Below, piece after piece: positions 18,839-35,488 of a stretch of DNA of 64,000 nt. The notes beneath the pieces are model-generated. The model was not told the DNA's origin and searched no databases. It was given only the letters and a program-made list of their open reading frames with translations. The DNA is from Paenibacillus aceti. Its GTDB lineage: Bacteria > Bacillota > Bacilli > Paenibacillales > Paenibacillaceae. Where the stretch lies: assembly GCF_003614185.1 (NCBI RefSeq), contig NZ_KZ987724.1:4214568-4278567 (forward strand), in the 5' to 3' direction. The stretch's first letter is position 1; every line of letters begins with the position of its first letter. A program made the position numbers and the translations under genes.

Positions 18839-18902
18839 CTATGGCGGAGAGGGTGGGATTCGAACCCACGCACGCCTTGCGACGCCTAGTTGATTTCGAG
18901 TC
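18839..18902 (-). repeat. attL: 64-bp direct repeat, 3' part of tRNA-Ser
   Basis: These 64 bases are identical to 35425-35488. They hold the tRNA-Ser 3' part from CCA through the T arm and variable arm to the anticodon loop (18842-18902), then diverge (GCATA versus AACCC). This is the displaced original 3' end of the gene. Confidence 0.95.
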
Positions 18903-18946
18903 GCATACCTGCGTATTGATTTCGGAAATTGTCCGAACTATCAACG

Positions 18947-18974
18947 TTCAGTTTGCGAACACATACCGGACTGA
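18947..18974 (+). repeat. Candidate integrase arm-type site, left
   Basis: 28-bp segment (core CAGTTTGCGAACACATACCG) that matches 35370-35397 at 23 of 28 positions in the same orientation. It lies 45 bp inside attL. Confidence 0.5.
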
Positions 18975-19082
18975 CTCCGATACTGCTACGTTGTTCCAAT
19001 TATCTACTATTATAATAGAAGAAACTAATCAGTCAAGCGTAGCATTTTACATTTTATACCTTCGAGTCGTGGAAACTATCTA

Positions 19083-19457
19083 GATTTAGCGAGTGCCTGT
19101 CGACGGCCCCTCGACGGTACCCCTTGGGGGTAATGCGTTACCGCGATAAAGCATACGGATGATACCTAGGTGATTGATAATCATGTAGATGTAACCCACA
19201 CCGCCGGAACCCGCGCCCCGTCTAAGTTCTCGCCATTTGTCCGCGTATACAGAGCGTAGGATAAGCGATTATTTGCACTATTATACATAATTCTGGCGCA
19301 CCCAGCCGCTTGACCCCCGAGTTTGCAGGCGCGTGTCTGCCGGGAGCTGCGTGCAGGTGAATCGCGTTATTAGTCCGATTTAATCCGAAAATAAAGCGCC
19401 TGTAACACGCATGATTACACGTTATCACAGGCGCACATATCTCGGACTCCCTACGTC
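19083..19457. other. Gene-free left end of the island
   Basis: No supported gene. It holds a terminator for the leftward operon at 19388-19434: GCGCCTGT (19396) pairs with ACAGGCGC (19427) and is followed on the minus strand by TTTATTTT. A short CCCCTTGGGG palindrome lies near 19119. Confidence 0.55.
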
Positions 19458-19922
19458 TTAGCTCGCTTTTTCTCCGTTAATCATCGCATCTAATTCGCTG
19501 ATCTCCGCGCGAATCTCTTCGTCAGTCTTAACTCGCGTCTGAACGGTATCACGCATATCCTCAACGACAGTACGATCGGTGAGCAATCCGTATCGACGAA
19601 AGAATAAGTCGAGCGCTTTAACGGAAGGAACTCCGTTTGCTCCTCCGCGAATCAATTTCATTAATTGAACGTAAGCTTCCGAACGCATTGCGTCGAGATT
19701 ACGTTCAGATAAGTAGTTAACGTAAGCTGCGAAATGCTCTTGCGATTTCCATTCGAATAAAGTCGAGCGAGCAATTCCTAACTCGTCCGCGAGCTCCTGC
19801 ATTGTCTTCTTCTTTCCACCCTCGCCTAGCAACTCGCCCCATTCGTTCTGAACAAATAGCTGCGCGGCCTTCTCTTGCTGCGGTGTGAGCTGCGCCTCTA
19901 ATACCTTTCGTTGTCTACTCAT
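19458..19922 (-). CDS. phBC6A51-type helix-turn-helix protein, small-terminase-like
   Basis: 154 residues. LTPQQEKAAQLFV (14-26), a helix-turn-helix MQELADELGIARSTLFEWKSQ (about 41-61) and KALDLFFRRYGLLTDRTVVEDM match the phBC6A51 HTH family, whose members in Bacillus phages usually precede the large terminase and are regarded as small terminase subunits (DNA recognition for packaging). Here no large terminase follows: the operon ends and attL is 0.55 kb away. The ATG at 19922 overlaps the upstream stop. A solitary terS-like gene at the distal end is a hallmark of satellites that redirect a helper phage's packaging; that function is inferred. Confidence 0.7.
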   Translation of the reverse strand: MSRQRKVLEAQLTPQQEKAAQLFVQNEWGELLGEGGKKKTMQELADELGIARSTLFEWKSQEHFAAYVNYLSERNLDAMRSEAYVQLMKLIRGGANGVPSVKALDLFFRRYGLLTDRTVVEDMRDTVQTRVKTDEEIRAEISELDAMINGEKAS

Positions 19923-20493
19923 CAATATCGTCCTCCTCTATAATCTTGTTCGCGGCATCAATCGCAGCCTGTAACGCGTCCGGATCGGCCAATAGGCGCC
20001 TGGCTTCCTTCTTCGCGTCCATATCGTATTTACCGTATTGATCGAGCAAGTCATGATCTAAGCTGTCATCCTTCGTCATCCATTCGATATAAATACGAAT
20101 CTTGCGCATCTCGTCGCTTACGTTAATTTCTTCGGTTCTGCCCGCGTCAATCATTTCGGTAATATGCTTCATCGTATCCAGTACAGCCCCGGCCCCAAGC
20201 GCATGTACTCCACAGAAAAAGCCGACGGAGTGATCCAGCAATCGAACCGCCTCAACGTATTCGCCAAGCTTACCCGTATCAATCCGCGTCACTTGTCCGG
20301 CCGCTAGGATCGACGCATATTTAACCGCGATTGCTCGGAACGGCTGCAGGCGCTCCACTAGCGCAAGCGATAACGGAATATCTACGAAATCTTCTCGCTC
20401 CGGCGGATCGGGCGTAAGTCCCTGTTCGATACGGATTTGACGCAGGCGCTCCGTTAATGCCGCGATGTCAACACGAAGCTCATCATTCGTCAT
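19915..20493 (-). CDS. Hypothetical island protein
   Basis: 192 residues, soluble, mostly helical, rich in Asp/Glu, with no motif I recognise (LDHSVGFFCGVHALGAGAVLDTM in the middle). Start ATG 20493, six bases after GGAGGTG; overlaps both neighbours (11 bp upstream, 8 bp downstream), so it is co-translated with the terS-like gene and may assist it. Confidence 0.75.
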   Translation of the reverse strand: MTNDELRVDIAALTERLRQIRIEQGLTPDPPEREDFVDIPLSLALVERLQPFRAIAVKYASILAAGQVTRIDTGKLGEYVEAVRLLDHSVGFFCGVHALGAGAVLDTMKHITEMIDAGRTEEINVSDEMRKIRIYIEWMTKDDSLDHDLLDQYGKYDMDAKKEARRLLADPDALQAAIDAANKIIEEDDIDE

Positions 20494-20674
20494 CCTCTTC
20501 ACCTCCCTCTAACGCAAGCAGCGCAGTCGTTACCGCGTCGTCCAGCGCTCGTAAAACGGATAGTCGCGTATCGGCATCAGGCAACGCGGATATAACTGCG
20601 CTGATAGTTGCGGTAAGCTCCGTGTATGGTTGCGCGAGGTCTATCGTACATTCGATTAAATTACGTTGAATCAT
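20483..20674 (-). CDS. Small hypothetical island protein
   Basis: 63 residues beginning MIQRNLIECTIDLAQ; acidic C-terminus. GGAGGG stands six bases before the ATG. First of three overlapping genes ending with the terS-like gene. No family recognised. Confidence 0.65.
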   Translation of the reverse strand: MIQRNLIECTIDLAQPYTELTATISAVISALPDADTRLSVLRALDDAVTTALLALEGGEEDDE

Positions 20675-20701
20675 GCGATTCCCTCCGTTTTTAAACACAC
20701 G

Positions 20702-20729
20702 AAAAAGAGCCCGCATAATTGCGAGCCCC
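20702..20729 (-). terminator. Terminator after the stalk-domain gene
   Basis: Minus-strand GGGCTCGCA / TGCGGGCTC stem (two wobbles), ATTA loop, then TTTTTCG. Only about 30 bp separate it from the next gene, so some read-through would be needed to express the terS-like operon unless a promoter overlaps it. Confidence 0.65.
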
Positions 20730-20747
20730 TTTCGAATATGTTCGTTA

Positions 20748-21314
20748 TTATTTTCCGAGCTGCGCTTCTAATTTCGCGATTTCCGCCTCGGCTGCGGTTA
20801 TTTTCGCTTGAATATCGGCGATTTCATCCTGTGCCTTTTTTAGCTTTTCTTCCGCGCCAGATGTATCCATCTTTATAACGTCTTCACCGGCTTCTTTATT
20901 CCAGGCTTCGGCTCTTTCGATTGCTGATTCAGCCTGTTTTATTGTTTCTTTATTACCGTCAATCGTAGCTTGCCAAAAGACGATATTATTTCGCAGTGTA
21001 TTGATTTGGTCTTTTACCTTTAGTTCCTTTACAACTTCTTCCTCTGTGCGGTTTATAGTTTCAGGCATTGTTAACTGTACCTCTCCTTTCTCAACCTTAA
21101 CCGTGTAGCCGGATGCCTCTGAAAAGCTCCGAACTGGTGCATAAGTCGTTCCGTCTATTACTACGGCATCTTTCACGGCCTTTCCGTTTACAGTAACCGC
21201 GATTACGCCCTGTACCTTCTTTCCGATTAACGAACTCGTTGCGGCGGATACAACTGCGGTCAGTGAGCCCACTAATACTATTGAAGCAACTAACGAATAA
21301 ACAAGTTTTTTCAT
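20748..21314 (-). CDS. Secreted stalk-domain (copper amine oxidase-like N-terminal) protein with coiled coil
   Basis: 188 residues. Signal peptide MKKLVYSLVASIVLVGSLTAVVSA (1-24), then a copper-amine-oxidase-N-like domain (about 30-85: IAVTVNGKAVKDAVVIDGTTYAPVRSFSEASGY), a module used by Paenibacillus surface proteins. A charged heptad-rich coiled coil follows (about 95-188). It has no enzyme domain, so it is probably a cell-surface or envelope protein. Start ATG 21314, six bases after GGAGGT. An exported protein inside a satellite-like element could modify the host surface, but that is speculation. Confidence 0.75.
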   Translation of the reverse strand: MKKLVYSLVASIVLVGSLTAVVSAATSSLIGKKVQGVIAVTVNGKAVKDAVVIDGTTYAPVRSFSEASGYTVKVEKGEVQLTMPETINRTEEEVVKELKVKDQINTLRNNIVFWQATIDGNKETIKQAESAIERAEAWNKEAGEDVIKMDTSGAEEKLKKAQDEIADIQAKITAAEAEIAKLEAQLGK

Positions 21315-21361
21315 AATTCTACCTCCGCTATCATGTTTATCCGTAGTATACATCATAATTG

Positions 21362-22528
21362 CTATTTTGGGATGTTTACTATCGCGAGTGTTTGGCCGGT
21401 TGTACTATATAACTTTAAGTTTCGCGTAGAAGTATCAAACGTCATATTTGTCGCCGTCTCGCTCTTACTCGGTTTATCGCTTATTAAGCTTCGTAAACTA
21501 TACAATTCGCTTTGCAACCCGTCGACATTCGAAATAGAGATACCTGTCGCGCCTCTTCCAAATTCTACGGGGTCCGAAAAATATGTTCTTCCTTGTACTT
21601 GAACCGTCCCTCCGACAGCCGCGAGAAAAAGGTTTCCGGAAGCGGCTAACGTCATTAGGCCCGGCTGCCCGTTCAAATAGCCATCAAGCCCTCTGGAACT
21701 CGAAAAGTGAATTGCATTTGATCCGTGTTGATTATTTTGGCTTATCGAAATGCGGACGGTATTACTCGAATCGTATACGCGCCATCCTCGAGAGTCCGTC
21801 TCCACACGCTCCCCACTCAGGGCCGTCCTCATGAGCGCGCCAGTTATTGTGCCACCAGTCAGCCCGCCCGACATGCTTTCCATATCAATAATTGGATACT
21901 TAACGACCTCATTGATTTTTTCTCGACTTAGCAACTTTGCTCCGAACGCATCCATACGGTATAAAGTAAGATCGCCCCCAATATCCCCGCCGGCCAAACT
22001 TTCAAACACGCCTTTAATTAATGTCCTCGGGTTTTTAACACCCGCAAGATTTGACGCAGTAGCTAATTCAAGCGCTTTGTCAGACTTACATCCACCTGCA
22101 ACAAGGTGTGTGAAACCCTTCTTACCTATTCTCTTTTCATCCTTAAACCCGGTATTATAATTAAATGAGTGGGAAACGGTTCGTCCACGCGAATCAATCT
22201 CAAAGCAAGCCACCCCGAGCAAAGACTCCCCTACTTCTTCTGCTGCTTTAACTTTCTCTGGCGTCTCCATCAGGATTTGACGGTATCTTTGTTTTATAAT
22301 CCGCTGTAAATTAAAAATTGATTTCACTTTTTCGCGTCTAAATGAACTAACCACGTCAAGCGCGGCGGATAGGTCGCCACATATAAACAGCAAATACTGG
22401 TCAACCTGCACCAATTTTTCAATCCCTTTAGCGCCTCTGCACCGTTTTCCGTCAATAGTGTGTGAAATTGCAGTATCCGCTCCGACAATAATGTGATCCT
22501 CGCTTTGCAAAAATACGCATAAGCTCAA
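21362..22528 (-). CDS. Proteasome-like Ntn-domain protein with phage-tail-like C-terminus
   Basis: 388 residues from a TTG start (22528) five bases after GGGAGGGG. The first 200 residues look like a proteasome beta/HslV-type Ntn fold: SLCVFLQSEDHIIVGADTAI aligns without gaps to the beta-subunit N-terminal strand, placing Ser2 at the catalytic Thr1 position and Asp at position 17; a Lys (KGIEKL) near position 33 and GDIGGDLTLYRMD near the end also fit. Removal of fMet would expose Ser. Residues about 210-388 (GTITGALMRTALSGERVETD, WRVYDSSNTVRISIS, GNLFLAAVGGTVQVQGRTYF) are Gly/Ser-rich beta repeats like phage tail-fibre or spike proteins. Enzymatic activity is not shown by sequence. Confidence 0.65.
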   Translation of the reverse strand: MSLCVFLQSEDHIIVGADTAISHTIDGKRCRGAKGIEKLVQVDQYLLFICGDLSAALDVVSSFRREKVKSIFNLQRIIKQRYRQILMETPEKVKAAEEVGESLLGVACFEIDSRGRTVSHSFNYNTGFKDEKRIGKKGFTHLVAGGCKSDKALELATASNLAGVKNPRTLIKGVFESLAGGDIGGDLTLYRMDAFGAKLLSREKINEVVKYPIIDMESMSGGLTGGTITGALMRTALSGERVETDSRGWRVYDSSNTVRISISQNNQHGSNAIHFSSSRGLDGYLNGQPGLMTLAASGNLFLAAVGGTVQVQGRTYFSDPVEFGRGATGISISNVDGLQSELYSLRSLISDKPSKSETATNMTFDTSTRNLKLYSTTGQTLAIVNIPK

Positions 22529-22602
22529 ATAAACCCCTCCCAAATTAAAGTAAAAGCGGACCCAAAGGCCCGCCAATTCATCCGTTTAATCAATTTAATA
22601 GT

Positions 22603-23463
22603 CTATTCTGTAGCCTTACTAGCTTCACGCTCACGGGCATCCTGGTTTATCCTCCGCCAAAAATCCCTTTGTTCTTCTGTCCACTCAAACGGGTCATTCT
22701 GTTGCTTTGGGTTTGCATCCTTCTTGATTTCTTCTTTCGGTCGCTCGTCTTCGTGAGCTGCGAAATAATCGTCTGTCCGATTTATATAAGACCCGTAATA
22801 AGTTCCCAATGTATCGTTAACCGCACCGCGTACAATTTCGTTAAAAAAGGCCGTCTGATCCAAGGCGGTGGCTGTCTCTAACGAGTCTCTAGCTGCCCCG
22901 GCTTCCGGAGATTCGTATTTCGAGGTTAATCCGCTAAATTGCTGCGATAAAGCATACCGAGTTTTGGCGAGTTCACCAGGCTCCTCTACTGCGAGAATCG
23001 ATCCAGCCAACTCCCCGAACTGTTCAGAAACTTTATGCGCGAAGTAAGGTTCTTCGATTCCTTCGATAAACGCCGTTAGTTTGGCCGCCGCTGATTTCGC
23101 GTTATGTGTTAGCATAATCTCCGTTTTAAGTACGCGCAGGGCTTCGTCGAAACGATCGATCTTCGTTGCGTCCGGCTTCGGAATCTTTGTATAAATTACT
23201 TCCTCGGCGTGCTTTCTAGCTTCGGACAAGTGCGCGCGGAACTCTTGGCGACGCTTATATACTTGCTGCATAAGTTCTTTACCGCGCTTTTCCTTAATCT
23301 CAGAGACTTTGTTTGTTTGGCCTTCCGGAGATAGATTGCGGTCTTCTTTAACTGCGGTGATCTCTTTGCGGATAGCGTCGTTAAACTCTCGATAAAAACG
23401 TGTATTGTCATTCCGTAATTCGTGCGCTTTCAAGATACTTTCTTTAGCTTTTTGCTGGCTCAT
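22603..23463 (-). CDS. Hypothetical island protein, helical
   Basis: 286 residues, highly charged, long helices throughout (for example ELMQQVYKRRQEFRAHLSEA), acidic and Lys-rich C-terminus with DPFEWTEEQRDFWRRINQ. AAGGA precedes the ATG by about ten bases. It could be a scaffold- or structural-type protein from its composition, but no family is recognised. Confidence 0.7.
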   Translation of the reverse strand: MSQQKAKESILKAHELRNDNTRFYREFNDAIRKEITAVKEDRNLSPEGQTNKVSEIKEKRGKELMQQVYKRRQEFRAHLSEARKHAEEVIYTKIPKPDATKIDRFDEALRVLKTEIMLTHNAKSAAAKLTAFIEGIEEPYFAHKVSEQFGELAGSILAVEEPGELAKTRYALSQQFSGLTSKYESPEAGAARDSLETATALDQTAFFNEIVRGAVNDTLGTYYGSYINRTDDYFAAHEDERPKEEIKKDANPKQQNDPFEWTEEQRDFWRRINQDAREREASKATE

Positions 23464-23494
23464 TGATCATTTTCCTTTCTTATTTGGATTGTAG

Positions 23495-24100
23495 TTATTT
23501 CCGTTTAATACCGTCCGGTAACTCACGTCGATTTTTGATATTTCTTATGTCCATCTCTTTTACGAGTGGAAGGTTATAGTCCTGTTCAATCTCTGTAATG
23601 TAACGTGTCGTTCGTCTCTCTGCGTTACTTTCTCGATCTTCAAGTTCGGCAATTTCGCGACGAAGAGGGTCATATTTGTCAACCAATTCGTAAAAATCAA
23701 GTAATGCGTTGTACATATCACTCCGGGCGGACGCGAGTCTCCCAACAATAGGCGCAAGCTCTTTTTCGCGAACGCCATTAATAAAGTTTTCATTCCAATC
23801 AAGCGCAAGATCGAGCGCCTTAACTCGTCCCTCTTTCGACTTCTCAACTGTATAAGCAAATGCAGCGTCACGGAGTTCCTTCGCTTCCTGGACGGCCTTT
23901 TCTGCCTTATCAATAGCTGCCGTCGATTTTGCACGCTCTGCGGACAAGTCTACTCCTTCCTCAAACTCTCTCCGCAATAACTCCTGTTTCTGTGCGAGTT
24001 CCTCTGCTAGTTTATCCTCTGCGGCCTTCACGCTGGCCTCATGTTTGGCGCGCAATTCCATAAAGCGTCCTGCGTATCGTATTTCTCTTTCAGTTCCCAT
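23495..24100 (-). CDS. Hypothetical coiled-coil island protein
   Basis: 201 residues, predominantly coiled coil (about 10-100: LRAKHEASVKAAEDKLAEEL) and a second charged helix (about 115-175). Ends in a basic tail. Adjacent to and co-oriented with the 286-residue helical protein. Function unknown. Confidence 0.7.
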   Translation of the reverse strand: MGTEREIRYAGRFMELRAKHEASVKAAEDKLAEELAQKQELLRREFEEGVDLSAERAKSTAAIDKAEKAVQEAKELRDAAFAYTVEKSKEGRVKALDLALDWNENFINGVREKELAPIVGRLASARSDMYNALLDFYELVDKYDPLRREIAELEDRESNAERRTTRYITEIEQDYNLPLVKEMDIRNIKNRRELPDGIKRK

Positions 24101-24104
24101 TTAA

Positions 24105-24545
24105 TCATTGTTTGAACACTCCTCTAATAAAGTTAATAATTCGGGCCCACCTGTTCGGATTCTCTGGCATCGGTTCCTCGGTATCTTCTGCTCCCTCTTC
24201 TTCCTCCGGTTCGTATAACTCCGCAAGTATTGGGTAAATAGGGGAGTCCGGCTCGAATTGCCGATATAACGCGCTTAGATTATGACGGGAGGTAAGCGAA
24301 ACGTTCACGCCCGGCACCGCCAAAAACAGCTTAAATAGCGTGTCGTTGTCGGTTTCTATATCCACCGTATCGAGCTTATGAACGTGCACTGTACCTAACA
24401 CCGCATCAATCAACGCCAGTTCCTCATCGTCGCCCACTGCTCCGATATGTTGGTCCGCGTGTGCCCCGTTTTCGTCAAAATAATTAATTGCGACGAGCTT
24501 CTCCGGCCCGAAATTGACGGTTATCACCTGAAACAGCGGCCTCAT
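24105..24545 (-). CDS. Hypothetical island protein
   Basis: 146 residues; N-terminal mixed alpha/beta part (MRPLFQVITVNFGPEKLVAI), acidic linker EPEEEEGAEDTEEPMPEN (about 110-128), basic C-terminal helix. Its ATG overlaps the preceding gene's stop by four bases (24542-24545). No family recognised. Confidence 0.7.
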   Translation of the reverse strand: MRPLFQVITVNFGPEKLVAINYFDENGAHADQHIGAVGDDEELALIDAVLGTVHVHKLDTVDIETDNDTLFKLFLAVPGVNVSLTSRHNLSALYRQFEPDSPIYPILAELYEPEEEEGAEDTEEPMPENPNRWARIINFIRGVFKQ

Positions 24546-24835
24546 ACACGCACCTCGTATCCATCCGCGGCTAAATCATCTTTAAAGCCCATTAACCGCG
24601 TAATAATCACATACTGCATGACCGGCTGTGTAGTCCTAAACGATTCCGTCCGGACGACCTCGCCCGTGTTTTCGACAATGGCCTCGAGTGTCACTGTTGC
24701 GTGAATACTTCCCGGCTTCGCCTCGATCTTTCGCTGGATCGTTACGGGCTGCGCGGGCTGTTTCGACTGCGGTTGTGGTGCTGGACGCGTGACGACGCCG
24801 GACGTTTCGCTTATCAATCCGCGAGCCGTAATCAC
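24542..24835 (-). CDS. Hypothetical island protein
   Basis: 97 residues from a GTG start at 24835 (MITARGLISETSG...). That GTG overlaps the upstream stop as GTGA and has GAGG eight bases upstream, better than the alternative TTG nine codons earlier. A Pro/Gln-rich linker (about 17-32) precedes a beta-rich domain. Function unknown. Confidence 0.65.
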   Translation of the reverse strand: MITARGLISETSGVVTRPAPQPQSKQPAQPVTIQRKIEAKPGSIHATVTLEAIVENTGEVVRTESFRTTQPVMQYVIITRLMGFKDDLAADGYEVRV

Positions 24836-25158
24836 TGTGATAACCTCACTTTCTTCGCGCAAACCCGGCCCCGGCTGTCCTCACCAATCTCAAAGGTAAC
24901 GCGGTCTCCGCGCATAAATTTCTGACCGTTTGCGGCCGACTCGTTAAAATGCACGTCCTCCGCGCCATAAACCGAGATAAATCCGAACCCTTTACTCGCG
25001 TTGATAAATTTGATCCGCCCCTGCTTGCGGCTTGCTTTAGGTTTCTTCTCTTTGGGCGGCGCGACCGGCGACCGATAACCCGTCGGCACTACGCGGCTAT
25101 AAACAGCCGCCATTTCTGTAGCAGGATAGCCGCCCCAGGTCTTTGATTCAATGAACAT
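24832..25158 (-). CDS. Cold-shock-domain protein with N-terminal extension
   Basis: 108 residues. The C-terminal 60 residues form a cold-shock (OB) domain: GRIKFINASKGFGFISVYGAEDVHFNESA; KGFGFI is the RNP1 motif and DVHF the RNP2 position, which bind single-stranded RNA or DNA. The first 45 residues (Pro/Lys-rich, YRSPVAPPKEKKPKASRKQ) are unlike host Csp proteins, which are only about 66 residues. GGGAGG precedes the ATG. Likely a nucleic-acid chaperone of the island; target unknown. Confidence 0.8.
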   Translation of the reverse strand: MFIESKTWGGYPATEMAAVYSRVVPTGYRSPVAPPKEKKPKASRKQGRIKFINASKGFGFISVYGAEDVHFNESAANGQKFMRGDRVTFEIGEDSRGRVCAKKVRLSQ

Positions 25159-25162
25159 ATAA

Positions 25163-25342
25163 TTACCTCCCGTTATATTTCGCAGCTAAAAACGGCGCCC
25201 TCATTCGGATCGTCGCCTCGCTGACGCTATCCCCGTAGTAAAGCGTGTATTCCGCGCCTGTCTTCGTGTTCCGTAGCGTTACGCGCCGACGATAGTATTC
25301 GGCCGGTTCGATGGCGGTTACGACCACATGGTCGCTTTTCAT
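25163..25342 (-). CDS. Small hypothetical island protein
   Basis: 59 residues, MKSDHVVVTAIEPAEYYRRR..., beta-rich (VTLRNTKTGAEYTLYYGDSV). Start ATG 25342 seven bases after GGGAGG; a 37-codon upstream extension was rejected. Ends 4 bp before the cold-shock gene. Confidence 0.6.
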   Translation of the reverse strand: MKSDHVVVTAIEPAEYYRRRVTLRNTKTGAEYTLYYGDSVSEATIRMRAPFLAAKYNGR

Positions 25343-25464
25343 CGCATATCCTCCCCTCCGTAAAAACTGTGCATAATCGGTACGCTTTTGGTTGATTTCA
25401 CACGTTTTCAGGCACGCCAAATAATCCGGCAAGGTGTTACATCCTCCGGACATTAAGCGAGCTA

Positions 25465-25677
25465 TTATCGCGTAATATTTACGTTAAACAAATGACGCGC
25501 CGACCGCTTTCGAACGGAAGGAATACGGTACTGACGTGCGAAAATAACGCCGTTCTTCTCATACGTCGCCATTTCCACGAAGTCCGGATATGACCGCCTT
25601 ATCTTTCGCATAACCTCCGCGTCCTCTGTGTATCCGGCCAAGTTGTCCGAATCTAAACGCCAAACTACGTTACTCAA
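25465..25677 (-). CDS. Small hypothetical island protein
   Basis: 70 residues from a TTG at 25677 (MSNVVWRLDSDNLAGYTEDA...), five bases after GGGAGGGG. It overlaps the upstream gene by 8 bp. An open frame extends far upstream but is in the shadow of that gene. Function unknown; basic C-terminus. Confidence 0.55.
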   Translation of the reverse strand: MSNVVWRLDSDNLAGYTEDAEVMRKIRRSYPDFVEMATYEKNGVIFARQYRIPSVRKRSARHLFNVNITR

Positions 25678-26059: not shown

Positions 26060-26175
26060 TAAAACCATCCATTCAGCGGCCTAGCAGTTTTGCCGTGGAT
26101 TTTCCCTGCGTATTGACCGAGGATTATCCGCCTCGTACGGATGTTTTTGCGCAAAATAAAAAGCGCTTCAATGGC

Positions 26176-28842: not shown

Positions 28843-29017
28843 GTAAACTACCCCTTTCGGTTATGATCTGCCGCGTTACCGCGGCCTTATAAGCAAGTAA
28901 ACGTTTATAGCGAAGTGCGGGCGGTCTCTTGGCGGAGCGGCCGCGCAAATAATCGTATCGGAGCGCCCCGTATTCGTTAGCCTTGCGTGTAAAAAATGCT
29001 ATGCGCTTAGAAATCAT
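28826..29017 (-). CDS. Small basic island protein
   Basis: 63 residues, MISKRIAFFTRKANEYGALR..., strongly basic (many Arg/Lys), so nucleic-acid binding is possible. AAGGAGG precedes the ATG. Overlaps both neighbours. Confidence 0.6.
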   Translation of the reverse strand: MISKRIAFFTRKANEYGALRYDYLRGRSAKRPPALRYKRLLAYKAAVTRQIITERGSLHEAQS

Positions 29018-29222
29018 GTGCCGGGACCTCCTTCCAGCCAACCGGTGCGAACTCGTCCGGAGTCGCTTCGATGCCGACGTGCTTCAAGTCCTCAATTGCC
29101 CCCGCAATAGCAAGCGGAAGCAGTTCATCGTTAGTTACCGGGAGCGGCGTGTATACGTCGAGTGTGATTCGCCAACCTGCGCGATCCAAGACGCAAGTGT
29201 AACGATGTTCCTCGTGTCTCAT
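29007..29222 (-). CDS. Small hypothetical island protein
   Basis: 71 residues, MRHEEHRYTCVLDRAGWRIT...; amphipathic strands then a helix. GGGGAGG before ATG 29222; overlaps the upstream stop by four bases (ATGA). Confidence 0.6.
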   Translation of the reverse strand: MRHEEHRYTCVLDRAGWRITLDVYTPLPVTNDELLPLAIAGAIEDLKHVGIEATPDEFAPVGWKEVPAHDF

Positions 29223-29521
29223 AGCGTAACCTCCCCACCTATTCCTGCAGCGACTGCCAAGAACTCAAGCGCGGTCATAGAAGCGAGCTTTTGGATTGAA
29301 ATCTTACCCGGTAATACTACGTCAAACAGTAGAGAACCTTTATAGTTACAAACGTATACCTCGCCGTCGATTTCCTCCACGCGCTCAACCACCAAATACG
29401 TACCGCTCACACTCTCGCTTCCAAGATCGACGGACACCGCGACTGATTCGGTTAACATGATACCTTCTCGAATAATCGTCTCGTCCTCGTCGCAAATCTC
29501 CGTTACCTTTACGAAATTCAT
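29219..29521 (-). CDS. Hypothetical island protein
   Basis: 100 residues, MNFVKVTEICDEDETIIREG..., beta-rich (VSGTYLVVERVEEIDGEVYV) with a helical C-terminus. Start ATG 29521 behind GGAGGG; a 44-codon upstream extension overlapping the next gene was rejected. Confidence 0.6.
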   Translation of the reverse strand: MNFVKVTEICDEDETIIREGIMLTESVAVSVDLGSESVSGTYLVVERVEEIDGEVYVCNYKGSLLFDVVLPGKISIQKLASMTALEFLAVAAGIGGEVTL

Positions 29522-29525
29522 CTCA

Positions 29526-29756
29526 TTAACCCTCCAATACAGCCATAACCAAGTCGAGTTCATTTCTCGCAGTGTGAATCTCGTGAAGTAATTTAAGAGT
29601 GAGGCGCGTCTCAAAATGTAAAAATCTGCACTCGTCGACCTTTCCTTTTTCATTGAGGCGTGTTAGAATCGCCGCCTCTTCTTCTATGTCGATAATCACA
29701 ACAAGATCACCCTTCACCACATATGCATAACAGCCTTCCATCTCAAAACTCACCAT
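29526..29756 (-). CDS. Small hypothetical island protein
   Basis: 76 residues, MVSFEMEGCYAYVVKGDLVV..., beta hairpin then a long helix (FETRLTLKLLHEIHTARNEL). Early position in the leftward operon under the CI-like switch suggests a regulatory or early function, which is inference. Confidence 0.6.
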   Translation of the reverse strand: MVSFEMEGCYAYVVKGDLVVIIDIEEEAAILTRLNEKGKVDECRFLHFETRLTLKLLHEIHTARNELDLVMAVLEG

Positions 29757-29770
29757 ATCGAAATCCCCCT

Positions 29771-29863
29771 TTAGTTATGAATTAATAGTTCCAGCGCGAT
29801 CCAATTACCGCCGCGAGTCCTTACATAAAGCCGCCCGTTGATTTGTCTACCTCCGCTGTACAT
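29771..29863 (-). CDS. Possible 30-residue leader protein
   Basis: MYSGGRQINGRLYVRTRGGN..., 30 residues; GGGGG lies seven bases before ATG 29863. It is the first possible gene of the leftward operon. The frame extends upstream but that part overlaps the promoter. Too short for certainty. Confidence 0.35.
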   Translation of the reverse strand: MYSGGRQINGRLYVRTRGGNWIALELLIHN

Positions 29864-29947
29864 GATCCGGCCCCCTTGTCCTAAAAATGGCATGACAAAC
29901 AAGCAGAAAGTTGTGGCTTTTTCTGTAAATAGACTGTATACTACAAC

Positions 29948-30007
29948 TGTACGCATTTACGTACAACCTGTGATTTGATTATAACGTACGCTTATGCGTA
30001 CAGTCAA
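29948..30007. promoter_or_regulatory. Divergent lysogeny-type switch with two operators
   Basis: Leftward promoter TTGACT (30007-30002), 18-bp spacer, TATAAT (29983-29978). The spacer contains the perfect palindrome GTACGCTTATGCGTAC (29986-30001). A second operator TGTACGCATTTACGTACA (29948-29965) overlaps another leftward pair, TTGTAC and TAGTAT. Operator centres are 37 bp apart. A weaker rightward pair (TTGATT ... TACAGT) could serve the repressor gene at 30031. Confidence 0.8.
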
Positions 30008-30030: not shown

Positions 30031-30255
30031 ATGGGGATAAGAATTAAGGTTACTTTTGGCGAGTTATTAGAGCAACGGGGAATGTCTTTGAGTGAATTAT
30101 CCGAACTGTCCAACGTTAGACGCGCGGCTCTCTCCGAGTTAGTAAACGGCAAGCGCGAAAATATTAACTTTGAACACATCGTAAAAATCGCGGAAGCACT
30201 CGGGACAACTGATATTAATCAAATCATTACTATCGTGGGAGATTCCGAGGAATAA
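30031..30255 (+). CDS. CI-like XRE repressor
   Basis: 74 residues. Helix-turn-helix MSLSELSELSNVRRAALSEL (about 18-37), followed by VNGKRENINFEHIVKIAEALGT, the typical small Cro/CI or YozG-type repressor. GAGGAG precedes ATG 30031. Divergent to the leftward operon and next to two palindromic operators, so it is the best candidate for the master repressor of the island. It has no C-terminal peptidase domain, so induction by RecA-type cleavage is unlikely; an antirepressor is more probable. Confidence 0.85.
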   Translation: MGIRIKVTFGELLEQRGMSLSELSELSNVRRAALSELVNGKRENINFEHIVKIAEALGTTDINQIITIVGDSEE

Positions 30256-30278
30256 TCGCTATCCTGCGGCGATCGTTA

Positions 30279-30557
30279 TTGCCGGGACAGCGAGCAGCTA
30301 TCGTTTTGGAATTTACGGAGTTGGTCGAGGAGTTGCGGGAGAAGGCAAGGTCGCAGAGGTTTGCGAACTTAAAAAAAGGTGAGGAAGTCCCCGAAAGCCC
30401 AGCTTTGGGCGCTCGGGAGCTCCGGGGTAAAATCGCAAGAACACTCGCAGAGAGAGCAGGTATCGGAAAGTCGTCGATGGAGTACCTAATCGCAGTCCAA
30501 CGCGACGAGCCCGGATTATTCGAACGAGTAAAATCCGGAGAGATTACGATCAACTAG
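30279..30557 (+). CDS. Fragment of a ParB/KorB-like DNA-binding protein
   Basis: 92 residues from a possible TTG at 30279. GKIARTLAERAGIGKSSMEYLIAVQRDEPGLFERVKSGEITIN matches the segment of phage/plasmid ParB-like proteins that normally continues INxAYxxV; here a TAG stops it right after ITIN. The start lacks a clear ribosome site. Most likely a truncated remnant. Confidence 0.4.
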   Translation: MPGQRAAIVLEFTELVEELREKARSQRFANLKKGEEVPESPALGARELRGKIARTLAERAGIGKSSMEYLIAVQRDEPGLFERVKSGEITIN

Positions 30558-30597
30558 ATGCTCCCCATCTGAGTTCCTTCGTATAAAAGAGCGGAAT

Positions 30598-30879
30598 ATG
30601 CGCGAAATTGTCAATAGGGCATACACGGATTTGGGACGGGAGTTAAAGGAAGCACAAGATACTCTAGCGGGGAAAAATCAATATAACGGGCTGTTTGTCG
30701 CGTGGCTTGACTACATGGGCTACCCTCGGCGAACTGCTTACGAACTGATAAACAGGTACGATGAGCTTTTGCGGATTCCGCAAAACCTTAGAGATACTTT
30801 CGAGGCTCTCCCGATCAGTCTTTCAAAACAGATATCTACACCTTCGGCAGAGTCCACGGAACCAAAACGCCAGCACTAA
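30598..30879 (+). CDS. Probable truncated phage-type protein
   Basis: 93 residues, [20 protein letters not shown]..., with [29 protein letters not shown] and [16 protein letters not shown], a pattern of phage/plasmid proteins related to DUF3102. The ribosome site is weak and the C-terminus stops early where it overlaps the following DUF3102 frame, suggesting a deletion joined two related genes. Confidence 0.4.
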
Positions 30880-31445
30880 CCACCGACCTCCCGACAATCA
30901 CAGCCGAAATTAACGCATACAAACGCGTTGCAGGCGAAGCAATATTCGAGATAGGCCGTCGCTTGAAGCACGTAAAGGAGAACGACTTAGCCCATGGGTA
31001 GTACCTCGAGTGGCTACAGACCGTTGATATGACACCGCGACACGCGCAGCAGTTTGTCCAGTTGGTAGACGAGTTCAAGGTAAATGCGAAATCGGTTGCG
31101 CATTTGGGAATCGCAAAACTCCTGCAAATCGCGCAACTACCGTCTGATGTTGATCGATCTGATTTCGTATCAGAAACGCACACGATCCCGTCAACCGGCG
31201 CAACCAAAACGGTCGACGAAATGACGGTCCGTGAGCTACGCGAGGTTAAATCGGCACTCAAAGCGGAAAGGGAGGCGCGAGAAAAAGCGGAGGCGGATTA
31301 GGAAGCCGTTCGAGAAGCGTTAGATAAACGCCCTCTAGTCGAGTACATGGACATAGAGCCGCGGATTAGGGCGCGTGTTAAAATGCGAAACTGGACTCGC
31401 GCGGGGATGCTGCGGAGCCCAGTGTTTGAGAGGTTTATAATCTAG
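30830..31445 (+). pseudogene. DUF3102 family protein, interrupted by two amber codons
   Basis: One frame reads [50 protein letters not shown]-stop-YLEWLQTVDMTP, LGIAKLLQIAQLPSD, TVDEMTVREL, KAEAD-stop-EAVREALDKRP and ends at TAG 31443. This is a DUF3102 protein (phage/plasmid, function unknown) with TAG at 30999-31001 and 31299-31301. In both places the frame and family pattern continue, consistent with GAG-to-TAG point mutations. No start codon with a ribosome site is visible. Confidence 0.7.
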
Positions 31446-32092
31446 TTTTTAGTTTTTGAAGTTCTCATCTTACGGTATTCTTTAGCAAGAGATTGCTTTC
31501 TTTCTTCAAGTAGATTATGTACCTCTATGGCCCTATCGAGGCTATCCTTAATATGTTTTTCTACTTTAGAGTTATCATTTCGAGGAGACGATTTAAATAT
31601 AATTGTGTCTCCATCGAGAGTTCTAAACTTTGCATCAAGGACCTCAAATACGGACCACTCTAATTTTTCCGCCAGCTCGGGCGATTTGGTGTTTATAATA
31701 TCAATAAATTTATCTATGGCCCTCTCTTTGTACTCGAGAGTCGCGCCCTCGTCGGGAGTATCATCATAATTGACGAATTCAGTCCGCTTCACTGCTGATA
31801 TAAATTTCGTTTCACGCGTGATAACATACAACATACTAATCTCAGCGCTGTAGTTTTTTAAGAACGTATCCTTTCTTTGTTCGTCAAGTGTTTTCTTCAC
31901 ACCAAACCACGTAAATAACCCTCCAATTATTGCACCCAAAAAAGCAAGAATATCCATATCCTTAATGTTTATTATTGGACCAAGTTTAATCAACAGCGCC
32001 AGAAGAATTAAAAAACAGCAAGAACAAGCAAGTACCAGAAAAATATTAACTAAAAGATTTCTTATTGGATTAGTATAATCTTTTTTGAACAT
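31442..32092 (-). CDS. Membrane protein, two N-terminal TM segments, possible exclusion/defence cargo
   Basis: 216 residues. Two membrane segments (about 15-36 and 47-63), then a charged cytoplasmic region (about 70-216) with KKTLDEQRKDTFLKNYSAEI and a basic C-terminal helix. The gene is visibly more AT-rich than its neighbours and faces the opposite way from the decayed genes before it, which suggests separate acquisition. The TM-TM-GVKKTLDEQRK layout resembles small membrane proteins often found as accessory or abortive-infection genes, but there is no diagnostic motif. Confidence 0.65.
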   Translation of the reverse strand: MFKKDYTNPIRNLLVNIFLVLACSCCFLILLALLIKLGPIINIKDMDILAFLGAIIGGLFTWFGVKKTLDEQRKDTFLKNYSAEISMLYVITRETKFISAVKRTEFVNYDDTPDEGATLEYKERAIDKFIDIINTKSPELAEKLEWSVFEVLDAKFRTLDGDTIIFKSSPRNDNSKVEKHIKDSLDRAIEVHNLLEERKQSLAKEYRKMRTSKTKN

Positions 32093-32106
32093 AAAATGAT
32101 TTCACC

Positions 32107-32262
32107 CTACATCGCATATTTAAACGTACAACTCTCGCGGAGATATCGCTCTCCTCCGATCCTCACGCTATTTTCCGTTATGTCCTTGATCTTCCCGCTT
32201 CCGACAAGCTCGTCCGCGACGAATACAACGATTGGCGACCGGTCTCCTTTCGTATATATACC
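32107..32262 (-). pseudogene. Remnant of a small beta-rich protein gene
   Basis: The minus strand reads GIYTKGDRSPIVVFVADELV, then GSGKIKDITENSVRIGGERY and LRESCTFKYAM before TAG. It looks protein-coding, but no ATG/GTG/TTG is in frame; an ATG a few bases upstream (MVKF) is one base out of frame, as if a frameshift inactivated it. Confidence 0.4.
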
Positions 32263-32303
32263 GAAATTTTACCATATTTCGCGGAGAAATGTCTCAACGG
32301 AAA

Positions 32304-32363
32304 TTTAATACGTGCACAAGCACGTATTAAACTATTGACACGTATCATCATACGTGTTATATT
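32304..32363 (+). promoter_or_regulatory. hicAB promoter with two palindromic operators
   Basis: TTGACA (32335-32340), 17-bp spacer, TATATT (32358-32363). The spacer is inside the perfect palindrome ACACGTATCATCATACGTGT (32338-32357). A second perfect palindrome, TTTAATACGTGC-acaa-GCACGTATTAAA (32304-32331), lies just upstream; both share TACGTG. They are the expected sites for HicB's ribbon-helix-helix domain. Confidence 0.9.
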
Positions 32364-32386
32364 AGAAGTGTAAGGACGGTGTCGCT

Positions 32387-32578
32387 ATGAAAGGATACTC
32401 TTCGAGGGAATTAATAAAACTAATCGAAGCCGACGGGTGGTACTACATAAGAGCAACAGGCGACCACTACCAATTCAAACATCCTACTAAACCCGGCAAG
32501 GTTACAATCCCTCACCCGAACAAAGATTTACCGCAAAAGACAATCGCAAGTATTCTGAAACAGGCGGGGCTGAAATAA
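32387..32578 (+). CDS. hicA: HicA-type toxin (mRNA interferase)
   Basis: 63 residues. SSRELIKLIEADGWYYIRATGDHYQFKHP, VTIPHPNKDLPQKTIASILKQAGL is the complete double-stranded-RNA-binding-like HicA fold; the catalytic His is in GDHYQF. HicA cleaves mRNA when free. AAGGA precedes the ATG by ten bases. hicB follows after 23 bp under the same promoter. Confidence 0.92.
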   Translation: MKGYSSRELIKLIEADGWYYIRATGDHYQFKHPTKPGKVTIPHPNKDLPQKTIASILKQAGLK

Positions 32579-32601
32579 GCCCCTCCTAAGGAGGTTTATA
32601 T

Positions 32602-33021
32602 ATGAAAGACCGCTATGTTTACCCCGCAATTTTCGATTATGCGGCCGATGGAATTTCCGTAGAGTTCCCGGATTTGCCTGGCGCAATCACTTGCGGAGAC
32701 ACAGACGAAGAAGCGTTGTATATGGCGAAGGATTGCCTCGGCCTACACGTTTACGGAATGGAAGAAGACGGCGACGTAATCCCCGAACCATCTCGTGCAG
32801 CCGATATCGTCACAGAACCGAATCAAGTCATCGTATTAATTGATGTCTGGATGCCGCCGGTTCGTGATAACATGGCGGAACGTGCCGTTAAGAAGACGCT
32901 AACCATTCCGAAATGGCTTGATGATATCGCCGCAGAAAATAAGGTCAATTATTCGCACGTCTTACAGGACGCGTTAAAGGAATATCTCGGTGTGAGTGAT
33001 CGTAAAAAGGTGCGCGACTAA
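32602..33021 (+). CDS. hicB: HicB-type antitoxin
   Basis: 139 residues. N-terminal partial RNase H-like fold (YVYPAIFDYAADGISVEFPDLPGAITCGDT, about 4-33, to about 85) that caps HicA, and a C-terminal ribbon-helix-helix domain (KKTLTIPKWLDDIAAENKVNYSHVLQDAL, about 100-130) for operator binding. AAGGAGG precedes the ATG. Longer than minimal HicB because of the DNA-binding domain. Confidence 0.92.
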   Translation: MKDRYVYPAIFDYAADGISVEFPDLPGAITCGDTDEEALYMAKDCLGLHVYGMEEDGDVIPEPSRAADIVTEPNQVIVLIDVWMPPVRDNMAERAVKKTLTIPKWLDDIAAENKVNYSHVLQDALKEYLGVSDRKKVRD

Positions 33022-33039
33022 TCGCTCAATTTATGCGAA

Positions 33040-33075: not shown

Positions 33076-33186
33076 CATTGTTATTCCCCCACTGTTCGGC
33101 TTTCAGTATTTAGTGCTAAGTAAACTATTTGTTGATAAATCAGTCAACAATGTGTAAACTAAAATTGACAAAACCGATAACGAAAT

Positions 33187-33398: not shown

Positions 33399-33494
33399 CG
33401 GGCCGCTTACCTCGCAGATATATTATACCAGACTATATCTTGTTGATGCATCTGAAAAGGACGCCATTTTTATTTTTACGAGATTTATATTTTT

Positions 33495-34262
33495 TCATTT
33501 CGCGGCCCTCTTCCGTTTGTACCGAAGCGCCTTATATTGCGCCAGCGCCGTCTTATATGCATCAACAAATAGGCCGACCGGATTTTTAACGTCGATCCGG
33601 GGCAGATTGGTGCGCATGTCTATCGTCATCATGACGTACTGCTCCGCGGCTAAATCTATTATTTCCGGATCGAGACGGTCGGGAAAATGGCGTAGAAGTG
33701 CCGCATATATATCCGCGAAATAAAAGTCACCGACTGCGTGCGTGTCGTTAAGTGGGATTGTGGATAGACGACGAGATAAGGCGGAAAGAGTAGCGTCATT
33801 CGTACAATCATTCTTAAAGTCATTATTATTTAAATCATTAATTACTAGGGGCGGTTTCACCGTAGACGGTTTTTCCATATCGGGAATTTCCGCTTGTGGA
33901 ATATCCGCACTTGGCTCCGGCTCTTGTGGCTCGATCGGCTCAACCGGGCGCTCAAATACAACCGTCTCATATCCGGTTATACGCTTCGTATCGGGGTCGC
34001 GTGTCTGGCGGCGCTCAATGTATCCCGCGGCTTCTAATTCTTTAATCGCTGAATAAACCGCGTCTTTGCCGTCTTTTGAACGTTTGACGAGGTCTGAAAC
34101 ATAAACGCGCCAGTCTGACGGTTTAGAGAGCAAATAGCCGAGCAGCCCCTTCGCTTTCCACGAAAGGCGCTCATCTGATAGAAAATATGGGTCAATAATC
34201 GCGTAAGAAGAATCACGCTTTGATACGCGGACAATACCGCCCTTACGTTGTTCTGTCGTCAT
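33495..34262 (-). CDS. Winged-helix replication-type protein
   Basis: 255 residues. IDPYFLSDERLSWKAKGLLGYLLSKPSDWRVYVSDLVKRSKDGKDAVYSAIKELEAAGYI (about 24-83) is the winged-helix domain found in Firmicute phage/plasmid replication organisers (RepA/DnaD-like). A Pro/Glu-rich linker (about 108-145) and a helical C-terminal region (about 175-245, DIYAALLRHFPDRLDPEIID) follow. Its ATG overlaps the integrase stop as TAATG, so translation is coupled to the integrase. It may act in island replication or excision control. Confidence 0.7.
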   Translation of the reverse strand: MTTEQRKGGIVRVSKRDSSYAIIDPYFLSDERLSWKAKGLLGYLLSKPSDWRVYVSDLVKRSKDGKDAVYSAIKELEAAGYIERRQTRDPDTKRITGYETVVFERPVEPIEPQEPEPSADIPQAEIPDMEKPSTVKPPLVINDLNNNDFKNDCTNDATLSALSRRLSTIPLNDTHAVGDFYFADIYAALLRHFPDRLDPEIIDLAAEQYVMMTIDMRTNLPRIDVKNPVGLFVDAYKTALAQYKALRYKRKRAAK

Positions 34263-34873
34263 TAGTGCGAGCCCTCCCGCTTCATAATCCGCGTAAGAGG
34301 CGAGTGTTTCCGATGTTCGTCAGCAATACTTTCTTCGCTAATTTGGACGTACTTCCGCGTTGTTGATATGTCCGCGTGCCCCATGATCTTCTGTAAATGA
34401 AATATACTCATCCCGTTCTCTGCCGCCATTGTCGCAAAATTGTGGCGCAGCACGTGCGGCGATACACTCCGCCCCAGCTTAGCCTTCTCCGCGTATCTAT
34501 CAAACGACTTTTGGATCGTCTTATCGCTTAATTGGTCCCCGTAATTCGTTGTAAATACATACGATGTCTCGAAATGCTCCGCGGACTCTGTTATCAACTG
34601 CTTCAATAGGCGCGCAGTTTCTGTTGACAAGGGAAGTATCCGAGATTTCCTATTCTTATTTTTCGCGGCAGGTAATAGTATGAGCTTCCGTACGAAATCA
34701 ATCTCTGACTTCTCAAGTGCGCATATTTCATTAAGTCTGAGGCCAGTGTCCAAAATTAACGTCATGATTATCGCGTCCCTCCACTGAGCCCACTGCCGTT
34801 GATCAGGCGCCTTTAAGAAACGACGCAGCTCCTCCTCTGTCAAAGGCGTAACTGTATCGACGTCCTGGCGCAT
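34262..34873 (-). CDS. Tyrosine integrase, C-terminal catalytic part
   Basis: 203 residues holding the complete catalytic set of a XerC/D-like phage integrase: Arg in TGLRLNE, the beta-hairpin Lys in NRKSRILPL, HVLRH (His and Arg), His in MGHAD and the nucleophilic Tyr in TRKYVQI. The reading frame is open upstream of the first Met as NPAANLSLMRQDVDTV, a phrase that normally follows the N-terminal domain, so this is the second half of one ancestral gene. The two halves are joined by a frame change at 34896-34900. Confidence 0.85.
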   Translation of the reverse strand: MRQDVDTVTPLTEEELRRFLKAPDQRQWAQWRDAIIMTLILDTGLRLNEICALEKSEIDFVRKLILLPAAKNKNRKSRILPLSTETARLLKQLITESAEHFETSYVFTTNYGDQLSDKTIQKSFDRYAEKAKLGRSVSPHVLRHNFATMAAENGMSIFHLQKIMGHADISTTRKYVQISEESIADEHRKHSPLTRIMKREGSH

Positions 34874-34895
34874 TAGAGACAGGTTAGCGGCCGGA

Positions 34896-35288
34896 TTACG
34901 GCTTATTCAAAACGGCAAAGAACGTCCTTAGAACGCGAATACGAACGTTTACTGATGCCGGAGAGAGGCCGCGCCGATCCTTCTCAAACTCCGCTTTATA
35001 CGGATGCCCTGCGTAATACTCCTTTTCTTTCGCGCACCATATTACATAATCGCGAAGTAAATCCGCGGTAACGTCTTGGATCGATATCTCTCCGCGATGG
35101 TCGGCTACCCATTCGATAAAGTACCGCATGTTCTTAACGTAGCCCTCGATCGTGCCTTCCTTGAGATTGTTTGCGCGCTTAACCTTTACTACGAAGTCTA
35201 CCGCCTCATTGAGCGTGTACGATGGCAGGCCAACATCCGCAATAGGCTCCCGTTGGTTCAGCGTCTTTTTTCCAGTACGTTTATCCAT
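34896..35288 (-). pseudogene. Tyrosine integrase, N-terminal DNA-binding part (frameshifted)
   Basis: 130 residues from ATG 35288 with AGGAGG nine bases upstream. LNEAVDFVVKVKRANNLKEGTIEGYVKNMRYFIEWV (about 26-61) and NVRIRVLRTFFAVLN form the SAM-like core-binding domain. It ends in CCG-TAA, and skipping the T restores the frame of the catalytic half (AAT CCG GCC: NPA). Either a mutation split the gene, or a +1 shift at the stop joins the halves; the linker is also a few residues short of the usual. Its ribosome site lies inside a terminator-like hairpin. Confidence 0.75.
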
Positions 35289-35325
35289 AACAAAAAACCT
35301 CCTACGCTTTATCAACGTAGAAGGT
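35289..35325 (-). terminator. Island-borne copy of the tRNA-Ser terminator, containing the integrase Shine-Dalgarno
   Basis: ACCTTCTACG / CGTAGGAGGT stem (one G-U), 9-nt loop, then TTTTTTG on the minus strand. The 3' arm contains AGGAGG of the integrase start. It closely matches the chromosomal terminator at 18790-18823 (16 and 12 identical bases in the two arms). Confidence 0.75.
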
Positions 35326-35369
35326 CGGAATCACTCAGGTATGTTTAAATCAACTAGCGCTCACTCGCG

Positions 35370-35397
35370 TCCAGTTTCCGTACACATAACGTACTGA
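35370..35397 (+). repeat. Candidate integrase arm-type site, right
   Basis: 28 bp (core CAGTTTCCGTACACATAACG) matching 18947-18974 at 23 of 28 positions, same orientation, 28 bp inside attR. Confidence 0.5.
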
Positions 35398-35424
35398 AAA
35401 CGTGATAATGACGCGGTATTAAAG

Positions 35425-35488
35425 CTATGGCGGAGAGGGTGGGATTCGAACCCACGCACGCCTTGCGACGCCTAGTTGATTTCGAGTC
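35425..35488 (-). repeat. attR: 64-bp direct repeat within tRNA-Ser
   Basis: Identical to 18839-18902. The element supplies this copy, which completes a full tRNA-Ser with the chromosomal 5' part (35489-35518). Confidence 0.95.

Follow-up and report, generated by a model that had tools for sequence, protein, structure and literature searches.

The tRNA-Ser island and its genes

The window analysed here, a 64,000-nucleotide stretch of the Paenibacillus aceti genome (assembly GCF_003614185.1, contig NZ_KZ987724.1, positions 4,214,568–4,278,567), contains an island of 16,650 bp bounded by exact 64-bp direct repeats, which a preliminary description made from the sequence alone had likened to the satellites of Gram-positive phages. 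The right repeat forms the 3' part of a tRNA-Ser(CGA) gene. The flank on the tRNA side was matched in all 41 genomes of the genus, and in each of the five relatives from which the site was fetched, the two flanks were joined through a single repeat copy, without the island. This identifies the window island, as judged from the sequence, as an insertion by site-specific recombination, and the attachment (att) repeats reported earlier stand as described. The features of the island and its target are as follows, with positions counted from the first nucleotide of the window.

18839–18902, strand not applicable: exact 64-bp direct repeat, island end on the terS side
19458–19925, minus: terS, small terminase subunit, final gene of the leftward operon (PF13022, phrog_7344)
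19915–20502, minus: P195, 195 aa, upstream of terS, predicted all-helical
20483–20716, minus: P77, small protein beside P195, labelled in 4/19 islands
20748–21356, minus: copper-amine-oxidase N-terminal-like protein, weak match (PF07833, just under the cut-off)
21362–22528, minus: 388-aa hybrid of an N-terminal part resembling N-terminal nucleophile (Ntn) hydrolases and a tail-tip-like C-terminal part
22603–23463, minus: P286, labelled in 9/19 islands
23495–24862, minus: three small genes (201, 146 and 106 aa) with homologues in other islands
24832–25158, minus: cold-shock-domain protein (PF00313), labelled in 9/19 islands
25163–26068, minus: two small genes (96 and 132 aa) common to islands
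26176–27090, minus: 304-aa phrog_9501 protein, replication or late regulator
27522–27752, minus: small helix-turn-helix (HTH) protein, 93% identical in island G19b
27915–28075, strand not applicable: three imperfect 43-nt iteron-like repeats, candidate origin or regulatory region
28489–29956, minus: early leftward genes, common to the sister island and other islands
30031–30255, plus: Cro/C1-type HTH putative regulator (PF13443, PF01381), divergent to the leftward operon
30279–31301, plus: three small rightward open reading frames (ORFs; 92, 93 and 90 aa), the 93-aa protein matching phrog_1733
31442–33021: cargo near the integrase, comprising a 216-aa protein (minus) and a HicA/HicB toxin-antitoxin pair (32387–33021, plus)
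33495–34262, minus: replication-initiation/DnaD-like protein (phrog_4707, 428 and 186)
34262–35315, minus: tyrosine integrase split by a frameshift (ORFs 34262–34873 and 34896–35315; PF00589, PF02899)
35425–35488, strand not applicable: exact 64-bp direct repeat, part of the tRNA gene
35428–35518, minus: tRNA-Ser(CGA), integration target

The other elements named in the preliminary description were found with some qualifications. A tyrosine integrase does occupy one end, but it is frameshifted, and its two ORFs align in different frames to residues 4–143 and 149–361 of the intact 362-aa integrase of island G04. The gene taken as a CI-like switch is a Cro/C1-type HTH gene divergent to the leftward genes, and it probably has a regulatory role. 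With regard to replication-type genes, the initiation-like gene at 33495–34262 supports the claim. The 304-aa protein, whose sole PHROG match is one of unknown function, has a homologue 0.6–2.2 kb upstream of a terS or terS-like gene in 11 related prophages, a position that makes a late regulator as likely as a replication role. The iteron-like array does consist of three 43-nt copies, but these are imperfect, with copies 2 and 3 being 63% and 77% identical to copy 1. Its core ACCCGTA, present three times within 400 bp in the window island, occurs at most twice (in G133) in any of 18 other island regions, and a conserved iteron is thus unsupported; two 21-nt repeats lie at the corresponding place in island G19b.

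A 40-nt sequence (88% identical) is found both at 18785–18824, just outside the left att repeat, and at 35287–35326, inside the island near the integrase start, and is a candidate terminator or trace of an older insertion.

Related islands, TerS and P195

A profile search for the small terminase subunit (TerS) across 395 genomes of the family Paenibacillaceae yielded 31 matches in 29 genomes. Seventeen were in islands (including G056, with a large terminase subunit, TerL), 13 were beside TerL in phage-type loci, and one (G322) was on an 8.6-kb contig on which no TerL was seen. Two islands of genome G019 (G19a and G19b) were added through a search with the 304-aa protein, resulting in 19 related islands from 17 genomes and five genera, so that the search for the same organisation in relatives, proposed with the preliminary description, was productive. 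Direct repeats were found for 18 of the 19, the nature of some att sites being presumed. Excluding G38, a 5.7-kb deletion remnant, the 17 att-bounded islands measured 16,087–18,648 bp (mean 17,217, SD 666). Comparison of their sequences shows a shared plan, consisting of an integrase end, cargo, a regulator with early genes, a variable slot for virion parts, and a P195–TerS end. Several islands have two integrase-type genes, and the cargo near the integrase includes HicAB in the window island, TIR in G22, FRG in G219, and RelA/SpoT-domain and ParA-like proteins in G19a. A check for the modules of phage-inducible chromosomal islands (PICIs) found the initiator/DnaD-like gene and the HTH regulator present, with a gene order only partly conserved between islands.

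Virion genes were sought by tblastn with eight kinds of protein (TerL, portal, minor capsid, scaffold, capsid, gp10, tail chaperone and tape measure) from 13 phages or prophages, and the window island matched none of them. This agrees with the earlier statement that it lacks large terminase, portal and capsid genes; the stated lack of lysis genes likewise fits a Pfam scan of 23 window proteins (seven small ORFs not among them), in which no lysis family appeared. Portal and minor capsid proteins were matched in 0/19 islands, TerL in one (G056) and capsid protein in one (G274). The window island and 16 further islands thus had neither TerL, portal nor capsid protein, and in no island was the full TerL–portal–capsid set found inside the att sites, the observation that the preliminary description had named as its refutation. 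As controls, prophage G34 matched all eight kinds, and G270 and G359, for which 20-kb stretches were fetched, matched six of eight; these three prophages had themselves supplied some of the queries. In the G056 island (L102–L103), TerL directly precedes TerS, without a portal gene, a capsid gene or P195.

The window genome contains a second satellite, OWN2 (G000:C1 near 4.98–4.995 Mb, L012), inserted in tRNA-Thr(CGT). Its TerS is 97% identical to that of the window island, and its integrase differs (40% and 33% to the two window integrase pieces). The two islands have two blocks in common, one of 1.4 kb with 88% and one of 1.2 kb with 86% DNA identity, and co-resident islands seem, from these alignments, to exchange modules. 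Between the two islands, dN/dS was 0.06 for TerS and 0.17 for P195. A two-gene transposase is present beside OWN2 (L013, joined positions 21340–24171) in two near-identical, closely spaced copies, along with a short N stretch.

The gene that closes the leftward operon was confirmed as terS (PF13022, 3.6e-28; phrog_7344, terminase small subunit, 5.5e-23). A profile built from ten TerS sequences matched PDB entry 2ao9 ('phage protein', nine chains in one entry; 6.2e-32), which we take to be a nonameric TerS ring. Window TerS is 44.5% identical to that of Bacillus phage vB_BauS_KLEB27-1 (64,960 bp), whose gene sits between terL and portal. In a tree of 56 TerS sequences, 17 island rows and 39 phage rows were split by a single branch (99/98), which was recovered in 100% of 200 bootstrap trees. 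This tree took 25 of 78 viral-contig loci (of which 25/25 hold TerL and 23/25 portal) and left out G322 and the short TerS-like genes of G17, G34, G029, G19a and G19b. The tree program warned that the long G056 branch may falsely join other islands, and flagged G109, G276, G270 and several viral rows as long. Trees computed without G056 and G276 (54 rows) or without G056, G109, G276 and L178 (52 rows) still placed the islands on one side (100/100). Of the 78 viral-contig loci at which a TerS relative occurs (best identity 48% over a fragment, 46% otherwise), none lacks both TerL and portal in the DNA fetched: TerL is present in 76 and portal in 70. On this phylogeny, island TerS is an island-only lineage.

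P195 precedes terS in 16/19 islands. It was found in none of the 78 viral-contig loci holding a TerS relative, a search of 50,697 phage records brought up no homologue, and not one of the 55 pattern matches from viral contigs could be confirmed. A scan of genome contigs gave six loci, none an additional island, in Paenibacillus bouchesdurhonensis, P. timonensis, P. amylolyticus, P. xylanivorans, P. caui and Paenibacillus sp. JCM 10914, the ORF of P. bouchesdurhonensis being the same as that of G004. The P195 model had a mean predicted local distance difference test (pLDDT) score of 86.3. The TerS–P195 pair provides a sequence signature for finding such satellites. In G19a and G19b, the last position is taken by a short protein bearing weak similarity (37–42%, E about 1e-6) to the terS-like gene product of prophages G17 and G34, which may reflect a change of packaging specificity.

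The virion-part slot and candidate helper phages

The slot upstream of P195–TerS differs between islands. At least one virion-protein homologue, by label, was present in 18/19, the exception being remnant G38, and tblastn matched tape measures in 10/19, scaffold-like proteins in 5/19 (G056 only at 2e-5), gp10 in 2/19 and tail chaperones in 2/19. OWN2 carries a scaffold fragment (PF06810 at 3.4e-7, under the cut-off) that aligns to residues 115–188 of a 229-aa phage scaffold, a tail chaperone (phrog_1442, 1.3e-4), a 1,332-aa tape measure (phrog_1535, 4.6e-9; best match phrog_7078, of unknown function), and a tail tip (PF06605, 1.2e-25). Island G22 carries a scaffold fragment (45% to a prophage scaffold), an XkdN-type chaperone (PF08890, 4.8e-22; 90% to prophage G17), a gp10-like protein (phrog_5, 8e-11), a 597-aa tape measure (phrog_58, 1e-5), and a DUF2577 protein (PF10844), presumably XkdR of PBSX-type tails. 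Further tape measures have 1,351 aa in G19b and 1,454 aa in G175. In G274 (L096, 15006–16574), the slot combines a scaffold-like gene with a 364-aa major capsid protein of SU10 type, which is full-length (PF17236, 2.9e-82) and 54% identical to the capsid protein of a prophage; portal and TerL are absent.

The window slot holds only the 388-aa hybrid, which likely starts at TTG and has the N terminus M-S-L-C. At the C-terminal end, the last 42 aa share 57% identity with the OWN2 tail protein, itself PF06605, and a partial alignment of the hybrid to a tail protein of a prophage shows 34% identity; the PHROG match of the hybrid is phrog_32308, of unknown function. Searched by sequence, it gave only two matches among solved structures (E 0.13 and 0.4), and no match to the window protein was obtained among phage records. 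A Foldseek search with its predicted model gave 183 matches in the PDB (E ≤ 1e-3), and the 50 that were listed are proteasome or Anbu chains. As the model is of low confidence (mean pLDDT 50.9, about 55–85 over most of residues 51–220), a proteasome-type Ntn-hydrolase fold for the N-terminal part is no more than likely, and a self-processing or peptidase activity within a virion part is possible. Related tail-tip hybrids occur in L039, L042 and L043; the S-L-C start, an Asp and a Lys are invariant among the four aligned members, at putative proteasome active-site positions.

The candidate helpers share their packaging module with KLEB27-1. Eleven prophage-type loci have the 304-aa protein followed by terS or a terS-like gene, and mostly then TerL, portal, minor capsid, scaffold and capsid genes. 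KLEB27-1-type phages and these related prophages may form the helper lineage, as far as gene content tells, and they are the candidates with which to test the satellite reading. KLEB27-1-type TerL (E ≤ 1e-20) was found in 5/41 genomes of the genus. A terL-positive helper prophage in the same genome, suggested along with the preliminary description, was sought, and a resident helper of matching type was rejected: the TerL profile matched 0/1, PF03354 gave no match in the window genome, and neither of its two phrog_2 TerL hits matched the TerL of G17 or G34 in an all-against-all comparison whose set did not extend to KLEB27-1. The genome does have a prophage with another TerL type (L032–L035, G000:C1 2.205–2.285 Mb), which encodes a 732-aa tail protein sharing 58% identity with the OWN2 one and, at joined position 63316, a 441-aa protein with a match to the Ntn-type hybrids of the islands.

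Interpretation and comparison with known systems

We assign a probability of about 0.88 to the reading that the island is a member of a Paenibacillaceae family of phage satellites, which parasitises phages with a KLEB27-1-type packaging module. Site-specific integration, the shared plan, the separate TerS lineage and the selection acting on it are all legible in the sequences themselves, and the combination of a terS gene without portal or capsid genes, purifying selection and an integrative element characterises the island, by gene content, as a satellite with its own TerS. According to the mechanism that we propose, infection by the helper would induce the island to excise and replicate, its TerS, with P195, would steer the TerL and portal of the helper to satellite DNA, and the slot genes would alter the helper particle. 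A scaffold fragment, or a scaffold with a capsid protein, could lead to a changed head, and a tape measure, tail chaperone and hub/tip protein to chimeric tails. The full form of this proposal is that Gram-positive satellites build chimeric virions part by part through a replaceable slot, with a satellite-only TerS–P195 pair redirecting the helper motor, and that they reached this independently of the Vibrio phage-inducible chromosomal island-like elements (PLEs) and extended it to single head proteins. We give this form an even chance.

Several observations weigh against the satellite reading. The islands were found only through TerS or the 304-aa protein, and with such baits relatives with other terminases were missed. 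No att repeat was found for G22, and no relative of the P195 fold was matched at E ≤ 0.001 in the PDB or a viral library. Further ORFs lie between terS and the att repeat in G219 (one, 378 aa) and G274 (two, 401 and 270 aa), and terS is therefore not always the last gene. Matching helper TerL was found in 0/6 island-bearing genomes of the genus (including that of the window) versus 5/35 others, numbers too small for an exclusion between island and helper to be read from them. Integrases in pieces were also found in G38 (likewise in two frames), G274 and G109. Moreover, in the window copy itself the integrase is frameshifted and genes for tape measure, scaffold and capsid are missing. Because its integrase is broken and its slot holds only the Ntn-hydrolase/tail-tip hybrid, this copy, despite its conserved TerS and P195, is probably stranded.

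Of the alternatives, the one that survives best concerns a single step of the proposed mechanism and accepts the island as a satellite. It holds that the slot genes only interfere with helper assembly in a dominant-negative manner, for which a lone tape measure or lone tip-type protein in some islands and the partial scaffold fragments (residues 115–188 of about 230) can be adduced. Given that the tape measures of three islands are uninterrupted (1,332–1,454 aa, with 46–55% identity to island or prophage relatives), and that a chaperone, a tape measure and a hub/tip-type gene occur together in OWN2 and G22, as in the Vibrio element PLE11, we regard this as a serious but less than even possibility. 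An unlikely explanation is a defence or toxin-antitoxin island, itself unpackaged, that captured terS and virion parts and poisons phage assembly with them. The cargo, with HicAB, TIR, FRG and RelA/SpoT-domain proteins, would suit it, and lone virion parts could serve as decoys, but the narrow size range, the integrase–att structure, the replication-type genes and the very low TerS dN/dS fit mobilisation better, and two islands at different sites of one genome show spread. Hardly credible is the chief alternative of the preliminary description, a decayed prophage whose terL–portal–capsid genes were lost by deletion: it would account for the broken integrase, the tail-tip-like gene, the several genes homologous to prophages G17, G34 and G029, and the deletion remnant G38, but not for 19 islands of one plan and narrow size in five genera, without a single TerL–portal–capsid set, and the TerS lineage apart from 39 phage TerS, the distribution of P195, unseen in phages, and the low dN/dS argue strongly against a recent deletion.

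As for known systems, the satellite family resembles Gram-positive PICIs and Staphylococcus aureus pathogenicity islands (SaPIs; SaPIbov1 type with operon I) in having an integrase at one end, a divergent HTH regulator, a replication-type gene, its own terS and a size near 15 kb. It is unlike them in that P195 precedes terS in 16/19 islands, and in carrying tape measures, tail chaperones, hub/tip proteins and, in one case, a capsid protein. Among the Pfam and PHROG hits of the window proteins scanned, none bore the name Stl, Pti or Cpm, in a scan that included no search aimed at them. The published PICI criteria, in the portion of PMC6092414 cited here, require the absence of structural genes and give 12–15 kb as the typical size. 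Further PICI criteria are an integrase with its specific att site, a conserved order of replication module and master regulator, att sites that prophages never occupy, and excision, replication and packaging induced by a phage. An integrase with a specific att site is present, that of the window being frameshifted; 18/19 islands contain a virion-protein homologue, which in the window copy is the tail-tip hybrid; and the 17 att-bounded islands span 16.1–18.6 kb, compared with about 12–15 kb, a range that is typical rather than strict. In view of its structural genes and size, the family is not filed as a PICI, although by analogy it may be said to work like one. The original comparison holds for a satellite with its own terS, but strict PICI membership is not claimed for islands that carry virion-part genes. 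The scaffold-like genes and fragments of some islands have a parallel in CpmB and Rcm of SaPIs; excerpts of PMC12409344 describe CpmB, and by hypothesis Rcm, as competing with the helper scaffold.

Capsid-forming PICIs (cf-PICIs) encode their head and packaging functions in full and use borrowed tails, as stated in sections of PMC10690885. Satellite-encoded capsid-related proteins are a common trait, G274 having both scaffold and capsid protein, but with portal in 0/19 islands, TerL in 1/19 and capsid in 1/19, the family, judged by its genes, is not a cf-PICI: the set of own capsid, portal, connector and both terminase subunits is not there. KLEB27-1 and the Paenibacillaceae prophages (G17, G34, G029, G270, G359 and others) encode homologues of the island TerS (or a TerS-like protein), scaffold, tape measure and tail parts, and the 304-aa protein is common to islands and related prophages. 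Unlike the islands, they are phage-type loci with TerL, portal and capsid genes, that is, a candidate helper lineage and no satellites.

For the slot genes, the closest demonstrated parallel appears to be PLE11 of Vibrio cholerae which, as reported in the main text of PMC12987554, assembles chimeric tails containing its own tape measure and hub protein, and encodes a chaperone too. In both systems, the satellite has genes for a tape measure, a tail assembly chaperone and a hub-type protein, and the rest would come from the helper. The PLE11 tails were shown to be chimeric, and OWN2 and G22 are likened to PLEs by gene kinds. PLEs further differ in that they belong to another host phylum, that the Paenibacillaceae islands encode terS, and that slot content varies between islands. 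The same text, reporting chimeric tails in 2026, presents PLEs as the first such satellite family, mentions putative tape measure (tmp) genes for both PLE-like elements and a sampling of cf-PICIs, and does not contain the words 'Paenibacillus' or 'Bacillus'. In the literature covered, which took in few subscription papers, no description of this Paenibacillaceae satellite family was found. Chimeric tails are already known from PLEs (PMC12987554, main text). If the reading is true, a Gram-positive family with tape measures, tail chaperones, hub/tip proteins and, once, a capsid protein with scaffold would point to the piecemeal exchange of helper virion parts as a strategy general among satellites.

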